This document shows, piece after piece, positions 6,653 through 41,098 of a DNA stretch of 64,000 nucleotides. The first letter of the stretch is position 1. Every line of letters begins with the position of its first letter. The notes under the pieces are model-generated. The model had not been told where the DNA came from and searched no databases. It worked only from the letters and a program-made list of their open reading frames with translations. The position numbers were made by a program, and so were the translations under genes. This DNA is from Ancylobacter mangrovi (lineage in GTDB: Bacteria; Pseudomonadota; Alphaproteobacteria; Rhizobiales; Xanthobacteraceae), in assembly GCF_024752355.1 (NCBI RefSeq), contig NZ_JANTHZ010000004.1:248001-312000 (forward strand), in the 5' to 3' direction.

Positions 6653-7645
6653 TTACTGGGTCTTGTTGATGTAGGGCTGCAGCGCCTTGCGCGCGTCCTC
6701 GAGCCCCATCTTCTCGTAGACGACCGGCACCAGCGCGCTGAACTGGCTGACGTCGACGTCGTTCACCTGGACGCCGGCCTTCTTCATCATCTCCAGCACT
6801 TCCTTGCCCTTGGCCACGGTGTTGCGCGTCGCCTCGTCGCCGGCCGCGGCGAGTTCCTCGACCACGATCTTGCGCAGGTCCTCGGGCAGCGACTGGTACC
6901 AGGCTTCCGAGGTCAAGAGGCCGGTGAAGAGCTGGACGTGGTTGGTGAAGGCGAGGTTCTTCGTCACCTCGTGCAGCTTGATGCCGTAGGCGCCGGTGAG
7001 TTGGGCCTCGGCACCGTCGATGGCGCCGAGCTGCAGCGCCGAATAGACCTCCGACCACGGCATCGGCACGGCGGTGGCGCCCATGGCGTTGACGGTGGCG
7101 ACCCAGCCGGGCGCGTCGATGGTGCGCACGCGCACGCCCTTCAGGTCGGCCGGGGTGTGCACCGGCTTGTTGGTGAACATCTCGCGCGTGCCCTGGAACC
7201 AGTTGTAGTTCAGCAGGCGCAGGCCCGAGGTCTTGGCCATGTCCTCGACCCACTCGTGATAGACCGGCGAGGAGGTGATGGCGGCGTACTGCGTGTAGTC
7301 GTCGACGAGGTAGGGCGCGGCGAGGATGCCGAGTTCCTTCTTGAACGGCGCGAGGCGGCCGGCGTCGACCAGCACGGCGATGTTGGCGCCGTTGCGGATC
7401 TGCTCGATCACGTCATTGTCCGAGCCGAGCTGCGAGCTCGGATAGATGGTGATCTTCACCTCGCCCTTGGTGCGCTCCTCGATCTTCTTCTTGGCGCTCT
7501 GCATGGCGAGCACCAGCGGGTCCTGCGCGGTCTGCGAGGTCGAGAGGTTGAGCTTGTAGTCGGCCATCGCCGTGCCGGCGAACAGCGTGGCGAGGCCGGC
7601 GGCCAGGCCCAGGGTCTTGAAACGGCTCAGTGTGCCATTGAACAT
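6653..7645 (-). CDS. dctP: TRAP transporter solute-binding protein, DctP family
   Basis: A 330-residue periplasmic protein with a signal peptide ending at about ...GTAMA-DYKL (about residue 28). The DctP core is clear: YPSSQLGSDNDVIEQIRNG, then VRVRTIDAPG holding the conserved arginine that salt-bridges the ligand carboxylate, then PMPWSEVYSALQLGAIDGAE. It captures an acidic sugar in the periplasm and hands it to DctQM. The ATG at 7645 is preceded by GGAGG. Gene context (uxaC, uxuA, uxuB, kdgK) points to glucuronate or a related uronate, which is inference from neighbours. Confidence 0.92.
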   Translation of the reverse strand: MFNGTLSRFKTLGLAAGLATLFAGTAMADYKLNLSTSQTAQDPLVLAMQSAKKKIEERTKGEVKITIYPSSQLGSDNDVIEQIRNGANIAVLVDAGRLAPFKKELGILAAPYLVDDYTQYAAITSSPVYHEWVEDMAKTSGLRLLNYNWFQGTREMFTNKPVHTPADLKGVRVRTIDAPGWVATVNAMGATAVPMPWSEVYSALQLGAIDGAEAQLTGAYGIKLHEVTKNLAFTNHVQLFTGLLTSEAWYQSLPEDLRKIVVEELAAAGDEATRNTVAKGKEVLEMMKKAGVQVNDVDVSQFSALVPVVYEKMGLEDARKALQPYINKTQ

Positions 7646-37857: not shown

Positions 37858-38184
37858 TCAGCGCCGGCCCGACACCACGGTGATCGGCGTGGTGCGCGCG
37901 ACGTGATGATGGTCCTGCGCCCGGTAGCGGATGACGGCGAGCGACTGCGCCAGCAGCTCGGCCTCGTCCACCAGCCCCATCTCCATCAGCAGGTCGAGCG
38001 CGGCGCGGGCCCAGCAATGATAATAGGCCTCGTCCGGATGGGCGTGGATCTCGCGGCTCAGCCGGTCGGCGAAGTCGCGCCATTCGAACATGCCGCTTTT
38101 GTGCAGCTCCACTACCATGGCGAAGATCTGCGCTTCCCACGGGGCGGCGAAGGCTTCGGGCGCGTCGAGCTCGGGCAGGGCCAT
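37858..38184 (-). CDS. Nitrile hydratase-type activator/accessory protein
   Basis: A 108-residue protein similar to nitrile hydratase activators, which are themselves homologous to the N-terminal half of the beta subunit. Marks are FAAPWEAQIFAMVVELHKSG, MFEWRDFADRLSREI, and YYHCWARAALDLLMEMGLV. Activators escort cobalt into the alpha subunit by subunit swapping. A HHH near the C-terminus (YRAQDHHHVAR) may take part in metal handling. It is the last gene of the four-gene operon. Shine-Dalgarno GGAGGAG precedes the ATG. Confidence 0.85.
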   Translation of the reverse strand: MALPELDAPEAFAAPWEAQIFAMVVELHKSGMFEWRDFADRLSREIHAHPDEAYYHCWARAALDLLMEMGLVDEAELLAQSLAVIRYRAQDHHHVARTTPITVVSGRR

Positions 38185-38186
38185 CG

Positions 38187-38552
38187 TCAGCGCTCCTCCG
38201 CGCCGGCCGGTTCGAGGTAGCTGTCCCACAGGTCGATGAGCAGGCTGTCGCGGGCCGGGGCCTCCTCGCCCCACAATTCGCGCATCGTGAAGCGCACCGA
38301 GTAGCAATATTCCGGCGTGCTCTCGTCGCCCAGCGCGCGGCGGTCGGGGAGCGCGTACATGCCGTGCACGCGCACGATCTCGCCGCGCTTGCCGCGGCAG
38401 TAGCGCGGCAGGCGGGTATGGGTGCGCGGATGGAGGTTGCGCGTCACCACCACCTGGCCGACCTCGTAGGGCGCGGGGTGAGGCGGCGGGTCGACGCGGG
38501 TGGTGGCGCCGACATCGAGCAGGCGGACGATCTCCTCGGGACCGTAGGTCAT
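38187..38552 (-). CDS. C-terminal half of a nitrile hydratase beta subunit, as a separate gene
   Basis: A 121-residue protein equal to the SH3-like C-terminal domain of nitrile hydratase beta: YEVGQVVVTRNLHPRTHTRL, then PRYCRGKRGEIVRVHGMYAL, then YCYSVRFTMRELWGEEA. An arginine in PRYCRGKRG corresponds to the conserved beta arginine that contacts the oxidised metal-bound cysteines. It starts at ATG 38552 inside the stop of the preceding gene, with its own GGAGG site, so it is made as a separate chain. The split matches the alpha subunit of thiocyanate hydrolase (ScnA) and one subunit of toyocamycin nitrile hydratase. Confidence 0.85.
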   Translation of the reverse strand: MTYGPEEIVRLLDVGATTRVDPPPHPAPYEVGQVVVTRNLHPRTHTRLPRYCRGKRGEIVRVHGMYALPDRRALGDESTPEYCYSVRFTMRELWGEEAPARDSLLIDLWDSYLEPAGAEER

Positions 38553-38890
38553 GAGCGCGCCTCCGCACCCGTGCCGGTGCCCGCATCCATTCGCGCGATC
38601 TCGGCGCGGTATTCGGCCGGGCTGATCACGCCCTTCTCGACCATCAGCCGGGCGACCGCGAACCACCATTGCTCGTAATAGGAACGGGTGAGGTAGCGCG
38701 AGGGCTCGAGGCGCTCGCGCGACTGGCGGAAATCCTCGTCCGTGAACAGCCCGCCGACGATGGTCGCCATGAACAGCGCGCACATGCGCCGCTCCCACTC
38801 GCTCTTGAACACCGGCTCGGTGCCGTCATAGCCGTCCGGGATGATGCGCCCGAAGCCGTCGTCGCCGCCGCAGTCGTGCACCGAGTTCAT
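38549..38890 (-). CDS. N-terminal half of a nitrile hydratase beta subunit, as a separate gene
   Basis: A 113-residue protein equal to the helical N-terminal part of nitrile hydratase beta: [36 protein letters not shown], and [20 protein letters not shown] with [10 protein letters not shown]. An arginine in this segment is the likely counterpart of the other conserved active-site beta arginine. The protein stops where the C-terminal half gene begins (ATGA). In thiocyanate hydrolase this half is ScnB. Start ATG 38890 overlaps the alpha-subunit stop and has GGAGG upstream. Confidence 0.85.
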
Positions 38891-39561
38891 GCCGCCCCTC
38901 CGGGAGTGAGGGCCTCGCTTACGCCGATCATGCTGTCGCGGGTGACGAGGGCGGCCAGCGCGTCCTCGCTCAGCCCCTCCGTGCCCGGCGGGCGGCGCGG
39001 CAGGATCATGTAGCGGATCTCGGAATTGCTGTCCCAGACCCGGATTTCGGTCGTCTCGGGCAGGAAGGTGCCGAACTCCTCCAGCACCGAGCGCGGATCG
39101 CGCACCACCCGCGAGCGGTAGGGCATGCTCTTGTACCAGACCGGCGGCAGGCCGAGCACCGGCCAGGGATAGCAGGAGCACAGCGTGCAGACGACGAGGT
39201 TATGGACGCTGTCGGTGTTCTCGATCACCACCATGTGCTCGCCCTGCGCGCCGCTGAAGCCGAGCTCGGCGATGGCCGCGGTGGCGTCGGTCAGCAGCCG
39301 CTGCTTGTAGGCGGGATCGGCCCAGGCCCGCGCGACGACGCGTGCGCCGTTTCGCGGGCCGACTTTGTGTTCGTAATAGTCGACCACCGCGTCGAGTGCT
39401 TGCGGGTCGATCAGCCCCTTGCGCGCCAGCAATTCCTCCAGCGCCTTCACCCGCACGCCGATATCGACCGCGTCGATCGAGGTCAGCATCTCCTCGGCGG
39501 AGATGTCCCCATCCGGCCCGTGATCGTGATCATGATCGTGAGGGTGGTGATGGCCCGGCAT
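38887..39561 (-). CDS. Cobalt-type nitrile hydratase alpha subunit (or thiocyanate hydrolase gamma-like)
   Basis: A 224-residue metal-binding catalytic subunit. The claw motif is V-C125-T-L-C128-S-C130 in [20 protein letters not shown]; threonine after the first cysteine indicates a non-corrin Co(III) site rather than iron. Cys128 and Cys130 are expected to be oxidised to sulfinate and sulfenate. The N-terminus is an unusual His/Asp-rich tract ([12 protein letters not shown]) that could hold metal. The core has no long insertion before the claw and reads like a true nitrile hydratase alpha. First gene of the operon; ATG 39561 chosen, with a weak Shine-Dalgarno. Confidence 0.9.
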
Positions 39562-39838: not shown

Positions 39839-41098
39839 TCAGTAGATGGGAAACCGCTCGCACAGCGCCCGCACCCGCGCGCCGACATCGGCGATCAGCG
39901 CGGCGTCGGACGGTGCCTTGACGATATCGGCGATGAAGCCGCCGATCGCCTCGAACTCGGGCGCGCCGAAGCCGCGCGCCGTGCCGGCATTGCTCGACAG
40001 GCGCAGCCCGGAAGGCGCCTCCGGCGGGCGCGGATCGAACGGGATGAGGTTCTTGTTCACCGCGAGCCCGGCCTTCTCCAGCGCCTTGGAGGCGACGTCG
40101 CCGGTGACGCCGATCCCTGTCAGGTCGACCAGCATCAGCCCGCAATCGGTTCCCCCGCCGACCAGCCGCAGCCCGGCATCGGCGAGCCGCGCCGCCAGCA
40201 CCCGGGCATTGCCCAGCACGGCGCGGTTATAGGCGGTGAATTCCGGCCGCAGCGCCTCGCCGAAGCACGCCGCCTTGCCGGCCACCGCGTGCATCATCAC
40301 CGAGCCCTGCACGCCGGGGAAGATGCCGTAATTGATGCGGTCCGACAGCGCCGCGTCGTTCCACAGCACGATGCCGCCCCGCGCGCCGCGCAGAGACTTG
40401 TAGGTGGTCGAGGTCACGACATGGGCGTGCGGGAACGGGTGCGGGTAGAGGCCGCTCGCCACCAGCCCGGCGAAATGGGCCATGTCGACCATGAACAGCG
40501 CCTCCACCTCGTCCGCGATGGCGCGCATGCCGGCGAAGTCGAGCGCGTGCGGATAGGCCGAGCCGCCGGCGACGATCAGCCGGGGCCGGTGCGCCCGCGC
40601 CAGCTCGCGCAGTTGCTCGAGCTCGATCCGCTCGCTGCCGCGGGCGACGCCATAGCGCACGACGTGGTAGTCGCGCCCGGTCAGCGTCGCGGGATGGCCG
40701 TGGCTGATATGCCCGCCCGCCGCCGTGTCCATCGACAGCAGCGTGTCGCCGAGCCCGAGCAGGCCGAGGAACACGCCGGCATTGGCGTTGGACCCGGAAT
40801 GCGGCTGGACATTCGCGAAGGCGCAGCCGAACAGCCTCTTCGCCCGTTCCACCGCCAGCGCCTCGATGGCATCGGCGAATTCGGCGCCGCCATAGTAGCG
40901 GGCGTAGGGCAGGCCCTCGACCGTCTTGTTGGTGAGCACCGAGCCCTGCGCCTCCAGCACGAGGCGCGAGACGATGTTCTCCGAGGCGATCAGCTCGATG
41001 CCGTGGCGCTCGCGCGCCAGCTCGCCGCCTATGGCGCGCGCGAGCTCGGGATCGGCCTCGAGGCCCTCGGTGAAATAGCCGGCATGGAGCGTCGACAT
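39839..41098 (-). CDS. Serine hydroxymethyltransferase paralog (GlyA family)
   Basis: A 419-residue PLP enzyme of the SHMT family. Landmarks are IELIASENIVSRLVLEAQGS, NKTVEGLPYARYYGGAEF, and VQPHSGSNANAGVF. The PLP-lysine segment VTSTTYKSLRGARGG differs from the usual TTTTHKTLRGPRGG: tyrosine replaces the histidine next to the lysine, and proline becomes alanine. These changes suggest a second, specialised copy rather than the housekeeping glyA. It may still convert serine and tetrahydrofolate to glycine, or act as an aldolase on other beta-hydroxy amino acids. It is not clearly linked to its neighbours. Confidence 0.88.
   Translation of the reverse strand: MSTLHAGYFTEGLEADPELARAIGGELARERHGIELIASENIVSRLVLEAQGSVLTNKTVEGLPYARYYGGAEFADAIEALAVERAKRLFGCAFANVQPHSGSNANAGVFLGLLGLGDTLLSMDTAAGGHISHGHPATLTGRDYHVVRYGVARGSERIELEQLRELARAHRPRLIVAGGSAYPHALDFAGMRAIADEVEALFMVDMAHFAGLVASGLYPHPFPHAHVVTSTTYKSLRGARGGIVLWNDAALSDRINYGIFPGVQGSVMMHAVAGKAACFGEALRPEFTAYNRAVLGNARVLAARLADAGLRLVGGGTDCGLMLVDLTGIGVTGDVASKALEKAGLAVNKNLIPFDPRPPEAPSGLRLSSNAGTARGFGAPEFEAIGGFIADIVKAPSDAALIADVGARVRALCERFPIY

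Follow-up and report, generated by a model that had tools for sequence, protein, structure and literature searches.

A window of 64,000 nucleotides from Ancylobacter mangrovi (the whole stretch of DNA that we analyzed) carries, at 37858-39561, four consecutive minus-strand ORFs, alpha, beta-N, beta-C and activator. With a probability of roughly four in five, we read them as encoding a functional cobalt nitrile hydratase whose structural part consists of three chains (alpha, beta-N and beta-C), with a dedicated activator to serve it; the product is probably a cobalt enzyme that turns nitriles into amides. The initial annotation had described an alpha with a CTLCSC claw and further ORFs of 113, 121 and 108 aa, and the coordinates and domain models agree with it; the GGAGG sites of the two halves and the ATGA overlap that it claimed are both found in the sequence (Table 1). 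By sequence, the four genes are intact and conserved, and their arrangement is that of a single translationally coupled set. In the host genome (4.9 Mb in 22 contigs), the nitrile hydratase alpha family is matched once.

Table 1. Genes and translation signals of the split-beta operon, in window coordinates.
Feature	Coordinates	Strand	Description	Basis
Alpha subunit gene	38887..39561	-	224 aa, stop included in coordinates; claw CTLCSCYPW; His-rich N-terminus	PF02979 303.5 bits; TIGR01323 310.8 bits, above cut-off; nearest PDB chains are Co-type nitrile hydratases
Beta-N gene (N-terminal half of beta)	38549..38890	-	113 aa; carries Arg55 (Arg52 equivalent)	PF21006 (beta N-terminal domain) 101.7 bits; predicted helical fold matches beta chains; dN/dS 0.20
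Beta-C gene (C-terminal half of beta)	38187..38552	-	121 aa; carries Arg47 in HTRLPRY	PF02211 (beta C-terminal domain) 108 bits; model aligns with residues 104-219 of P. putida beta and 10-126 of ScnA; dN/dS 0.17
Activator (accessory protein) gene	37858..38184	-	108 aa	TIGR03889 62.9 bits, cut-off 46
ATGA overlap, alpha stop / beta-N start	38887..38890	-		Sequence
ATGA overlap, beta-N stop / beta-C start	38549..38552	-		Sequence
GGAGG ahead of beta-N	38897..38901	-		Sequence
GGAGG ahead of beta-C	38560..38564	-	Within the beta-N 3' end	Sequence
GGAGG ahead of activator	38195..38199	-	Within the beta-C 3' end	Sequence

Alpha passes the nitrile hydratase alpha model TIGR01323 (310.8 bits, cut-off 249.85) and falls 100 bits short of TIGR03887, the model for the metal subunit of thiocyanate hydrolase (191.7 bits, cut-off 291.45), which bears out the earlier reading of its core as that of a true nitrile hydratase. 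Thr in the claw is a mark of the cobalt type, and the claw of the window alpha is C-T-L-C-S-C. Among solved chains searched with phmmer, the Co-type alpha of P. putida reaches 297.9 bits against the window alpha (the top row, at 302.1 bits, belongs to an entry in which a segment is doubled), and the gamma chains of thiocyanate hydrolase lie at the bottom of the family with 165.6 and 171.5 bits; from these family-model and solved-chain matches of alpha, we take gamma to be the metal subunit of thiocyanate hydrolase. For beta-N and beta-C, nitrile hydratase beta chains are matched first and thiocyanate hydrolase chains last or nearly last. Immediately after the claw the window reads CYPW, whereas thiocyanate hydrolase (2dd4_C, read beside the deposited variant 3vyg_C) reads CYPR, with Arg136 in place of the Trp. 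The string CTLCSCYPW is present in all 36 alpha-first split loci and in 51 of 57 fused-beta loci of the set described below; Arg or Lys occupies the Trp position in 7 of 10 beta-first split loci. Seven of those ten beta-first loci were scanned with the family models: all seven fall below the TIGR03887 cut-off, and two lie above the nitrile hydratase cut-off. Based on the family cut-offs, the ranking of solved chains, the claw-adjacent Trp and the arginines kept in beta (see below), we conclude that the predicted enzyme is of the nitrile hydratase type. A separate feature of alpha is that its residues 147-204 (gene at window 38887-39561) pass the NCBIfam NHLP leader peptide domain model (63.9 bits, cut-off 50.9), a match that agrees with the name of that NCBIfam family.

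The best-surviving alternative is a thiocyanate hydrolase, which would convert thiocyanate to carbonyl sulfide and ammonia with the same three-chain cobalt architecture: the two cobalt enzymes belong to one superfamily, and ScnA/ScnB/ScnC (2dd4) resembles the window enzyme in its three chains, its Co claw and the structurally same site of the split. We nevertheless rejected it as the identity of the enzyme on the family cut-offs and the Trp at the Arg136 position, and the beta halves resemble nitrile hydratase beta far more than they do ScnB or ScnA. Gene order also differs, as the initial annotation had remarked: at our locus the metal subunit comes first and the activator last, whereas in the available part of a 2020 review the thiocyanate hydrolase arrangement (its order C) ends with the metal subunit and the activator (PMC7193024). 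The host genome gave no match to cyanate lyase, which bears weakly on the enzyme itself. Taken together, a thiocyanate hydrolase is improbable, and thiocyanate, which had been put forward as an equal candidate with nitriles, is disfavored as a substrate by the same TIGR03887 shortfall and the same Trp. A certified thiocyanate hydrolase was sought as an anchor for the trees, but none of 398 Pseudomonadota genomes gave a match above the TIGR03887 cut-off (58 gave weaker ones), and the trees therefore contain none.

For the nitrile hydratase reading, the two beta genes have to supply what one chain usually does. Against the full-length beta model TIGR03888 (cut-off 152.2 bits), beta-N scores 91.4 and beta-C 107.8 bits, each being a half-chain below the cut-off; we take this miss to mark a variant and not an exclusion, because known split-beta nitrile hydratases miss it too. 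Two arginines of beta face the claw, the Arg52 equivalent, located in beta-N, and the HTR arginine, located in beta-C. Neither varies in any row of the beta alignment, and each half keeps one of the active-site arginines of a fused beta. The second shell is not retained in full, since His71 of P. putida beta (by our own count) corresponds to a Gln in the window (residue 74 of beta-N, 38552-38890); across the 36 split loci this position is His in 22, Arg in seven and Gln in seven (six Ancylobacter and L034).

AlphaFold2 models built from 23-row alignments have a mean pLDDT of 77.6 for beta-N, which is predicted to be helical with poor ends, and of 86.1 for beta-C, in which a helix (residues 5-14) precedes the barrel. 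For both halves Foldseek returns nitrile hydratase beta chains on top and thiocyanate hydrolase chains further down, with the proviso that beta-N is matched only loosely (TM about 0.6, rmsd 7 to 9) and that its model is only fair. VIA-align places residues 1-116 of beta-C onto residues 104-219 of P. putida beta (3qyg, Z 13.9) and onto residues 10-126 of ScnA (Z 12.2), and on these alignments the break lies in the linker joining the two beta domains, structurally at the site where thiocyanate hydrolase has it. The covalent link within that linker seems to be dispensable. We had also considered that the break site might be unlike that of thiocyanate hydrolase, given that beta-C of the beta-first loci is N-terminally short; this was dropped, as ScnA has that segment from residue 10. 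Beta-N and the activator both match PF21006 and are thus homologous.

The split is not peculiar to this genome. The genome collection was scanned with the alpha protein, keeping the best 80 of 90 related loci, and beta-C was searched for in 61 genomes, the host's own included, 26 of which had a match. With duplicates removed there were 103 distinct loci with alpha, 36 of them alpha-first split (window included), 57 with a fused beta and 10 beta-first split; these loci were picked by likeness to the window proteins, so that the shares are not a census. The order alpha, beta-N, beta-C, found in those 36 of 103 loci, occurs in Ancylobacter, other proteobacteria and cyanobacteria (L045 was counted here on its gene order, despite long open frames), and all but one of the 36 have an activator-type gene, the exception being L034. 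Because the same gene order recurs in 35 further distinct loci, the split is not a sequencing error, and its recurrence in so many other bacteria implies that it is real and lasting. The initial annotation had named, as a possible refutation, a resequenced locus in which a frame-restoring base fuses the halves; the relatives do not bear this out, the split being common to six genomes of the genus, including the window's. Seven of 30 genus genomes, the host's own included, have the cassette, six split and one, A. radicis (L005 / L032, G014), with a fused beta of 235 aa; an eighth genome of the genus has a different enzyme, beta-first and fused.

Other layouts were also seen among these loci. 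Alpha is followed by two tandem fused beta genes and an activator in L057, L065, L069, L070 and L072 (5 of the 57 fused loci). At L027:462-1725 (genome G039) a single open frame reads as beta-N or an activator joined to alpha, with a separate beta-C after it, and L026 (genome G040) has beta-C, alpha and a beta-N-like gene, in that order, which resembles the Microvirga order given in the available text of PMC11573777.

Both beta halves are under purifying selection and are maintained as proteins. By the Nei-Gojobori method, applied to the domains, dN/dS between the window and its nearest relative (G012) is 0.16 for alpha, 0.20 for beta-N, 0.17 for beta-C and 0.14 for the activator; it is 0.06-0.09 between L007 and L008, 0.10-0.19 between L006 and L008, and 0.26 to 0.68, highest for the activator, between the window and four more distant congeners. 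Purifying selection on both halves, along with the same order in 35 other loci, upholds the initial claim that beta is genuinely split. At the junction, the beta-C start overlaps the beta-N stop in 26 of the 36 split loci (ATGA in 8, TGATG in 18), and in the other ten it lies 3 to 10 positions after the stop, in a count whose choice of start favors codons near the stop. Such a stop and start overlap might let ribosomal frameshifting join the halves in part of the product, giving a fused beta as well; the GGAGG ahead of beta-C suits plain re-initiation, however, and the junction varies among congeners (ATGA or TGATG) and has no overlap at all in those ten loci, making this a very improbable alternative. 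Least probable is that a recent frameshift broke beta and left the operon decaying or inactive: a cassette present in only 7 of 30 genus genomes is dispensable, but the same split in 36 loci from several classes, the low dN/dS in both halves, and the start codon and GGAGG of beta-C all tell against it.

In a tree of 91 loci, built on 374 columns that cover the domains of alpha, beta-N and beta-C, one set (support 93/93, below the starred level) takes in 29 of the 36 split loci; this set also contains the A. radicis fused beta and four beta-first fused loci, and seven cyanobacterial split loci are separate from it. A tree had been proposed as a check on the split, and in ours the halves group with many split relatives. 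A. radicis lies within the split Ancylobacter (support 100/97) and has a one-codon gap in beta-N in common with L006, L007 and L008; this position and the shared gap suggest that its fused beta arose by re-fusion. However, the AU test does not reject a topology that leaves A. radicis outside the six split Ancylobacter (p 0.223). By our own reading of the alignment, A. radicis joins the halves through a Pro-rich stretch and not through a one-base repair of the frame at its neighbors' junction. Four changes between split and fused are needed on the best tree and five on the alpha-only tree, and the AU test rejects neither a single clade that unites A. radicis with all split rows (p 0.139) nor the corresponding clade with the cyanobacteria left out (0.11). 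A more speculative scenario, to which we give rather little weight, is that the alpha-first split-beta nitrile hydratases form an old, stable proteobacterial and cyanobacterial lineage in which separate halves are ancestral or selected, perhaps since a free beta-N, as an activator homologue, aids the exchange of cobalt-loaded alpha, and that later re-fusion gave rise to fused betas like the one in A. radicis.

Compared with known systems, the window enzyme is like the Co-type nitrile hydratases of P. putida (3qxe) and P. thermophila (1ire) in its alpha claw, beta domains, active-site arginines and activator gene, but their beta is one chain of 219-229 aa, whereas that of the window is two. Among the split precedents first cited for it, thiocyanate hydrolase holds good; the other is toyocamycin nitrile hydratase (ToyJ/K/L), which we take to be a three-chain nitrile hydratase and liken to the window enzyme. 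Pantoea sp. At-9b was dropped as a further candidate, its plasmid annotation having one beta gene of 660 bases; the strain was not found named together with nitrile hydratase in the open-licence PMC literature.

Further split nitrile hydratases are in print, as far as the available portions of the sources go: AnhD-AnhE-AnhA of Streptomyces canus is a cobalt nitrile hydratase with a two-chain beta, both chains being required for full activity (PMC7329996), and the plasmid enzyme of Microvirga flocculans is reported as three-subunit (PMC11573777). A split beta in nitrile hydratase was thus already known. In S. canus, however, the beta genes come first and no activator is described as found (PMC7329996), and in Microvirga alpha lies between its two beta genes (PMC11573777), whereas the window has alpha ahead of both and an activator. 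The accessible parts of three reviews describe an archaeal enzyme with alpha fused to its activator (2024; PMC11573777), six gene orders of which none is alpha, beta-N, beta-C, activator (2020; PMC7193024), and four types, with a citation of the S. canus enzyme (2026; PMC13243292). In the portions of the open-licence PMC literature available to us, we did not find the alpha-first, activator-bearing split form or its spread described.

The operon's neighbors in the window encode an acid phosphatase, a LysR regulator, a serine hydroxymethyltransferase, a Tlde1-domain protein, an aldo/keto reductase and an HSP20 protein, with no nitrile-metabolism gene among them; farther out are genes that we read, from ORFs and without a model, as Calvin-cycle genes. 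The flanks are common to the window and G012, and in four other Ancylobacter regions the operon alone matches. The serine hydroxymethyltransferase gene (window 39839-41098, minus strand) adjoins alpha upstream; in G012 the two are separated by other genes spanning about 5.4 kb. The host genome as a whole gave matches to the amidase family (10), CN-hydrolase (9) and NicO (4), some of them falling in one gene.

Neighborhoods were compared by tblastn with queries taken from split loci, which biases the comparison: 37 alpha-first split regions (35 loci, two fetched twice; window left out) gave amidase in 9, CN-hydrolase in 8, CobW in 9, NicO in 5, a LivK-type binding protein in 14 and an NMT1-type one in 7, as against 4, 0, 1, 2, 2 and 0, respectively, in 44 fused regions and none of the six in 4 beta-first split regions. 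The end of a CobW-type gene in G006, at 7376, is followed by the opening of the alpha frame at 7460. These neighbor genes fit a route from nitrile to amide to acid, together with metal supply, in some of the lineages.

By analogy with the family, the activator would deliver cobalt to alpha through an alpha-activator complex, followed by subunit exchange or direct insertion, and two claw cysteines would become oxidized. Beta-N and beta-C would then occupy alpha like the halves of a fused beta, giving (alpha, beta-N, beta-C) x2, with the oxidized cysteines held by Arg55 of beta-N and Arg47 of beta-C. The enzyme so assembled would hydrate a nitrile, and the resulting amide may be hydrolyzed by an amidase from another locus of the genome. 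Free beta-N might help with cobalt loading too, an idea prompted by its homology to the activator (PF21006) and by the report, in the available text, that AnhD of S. canus is a metal and swapping chaperone (PMC7329996); the window operon has an activator of its own, beside beta-N.

Annotation of the beta halves has a gap: on the Gloeocapsopsis dulcis plasmid NZ_CP119970.1 (L147:3621-4318), both are annotated only as "SH3-like domain-containing protein", a name that would make a name-based beta search miss the two of them. In many lineages, an enzyme of industrial use has its two-domain beta as two chains, with the active-site arginines in place, and the split operon of the window and its fused counterpart in A. 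radicis form a natural experiment on the linker's contribution to stability, metal loading and substrate range.
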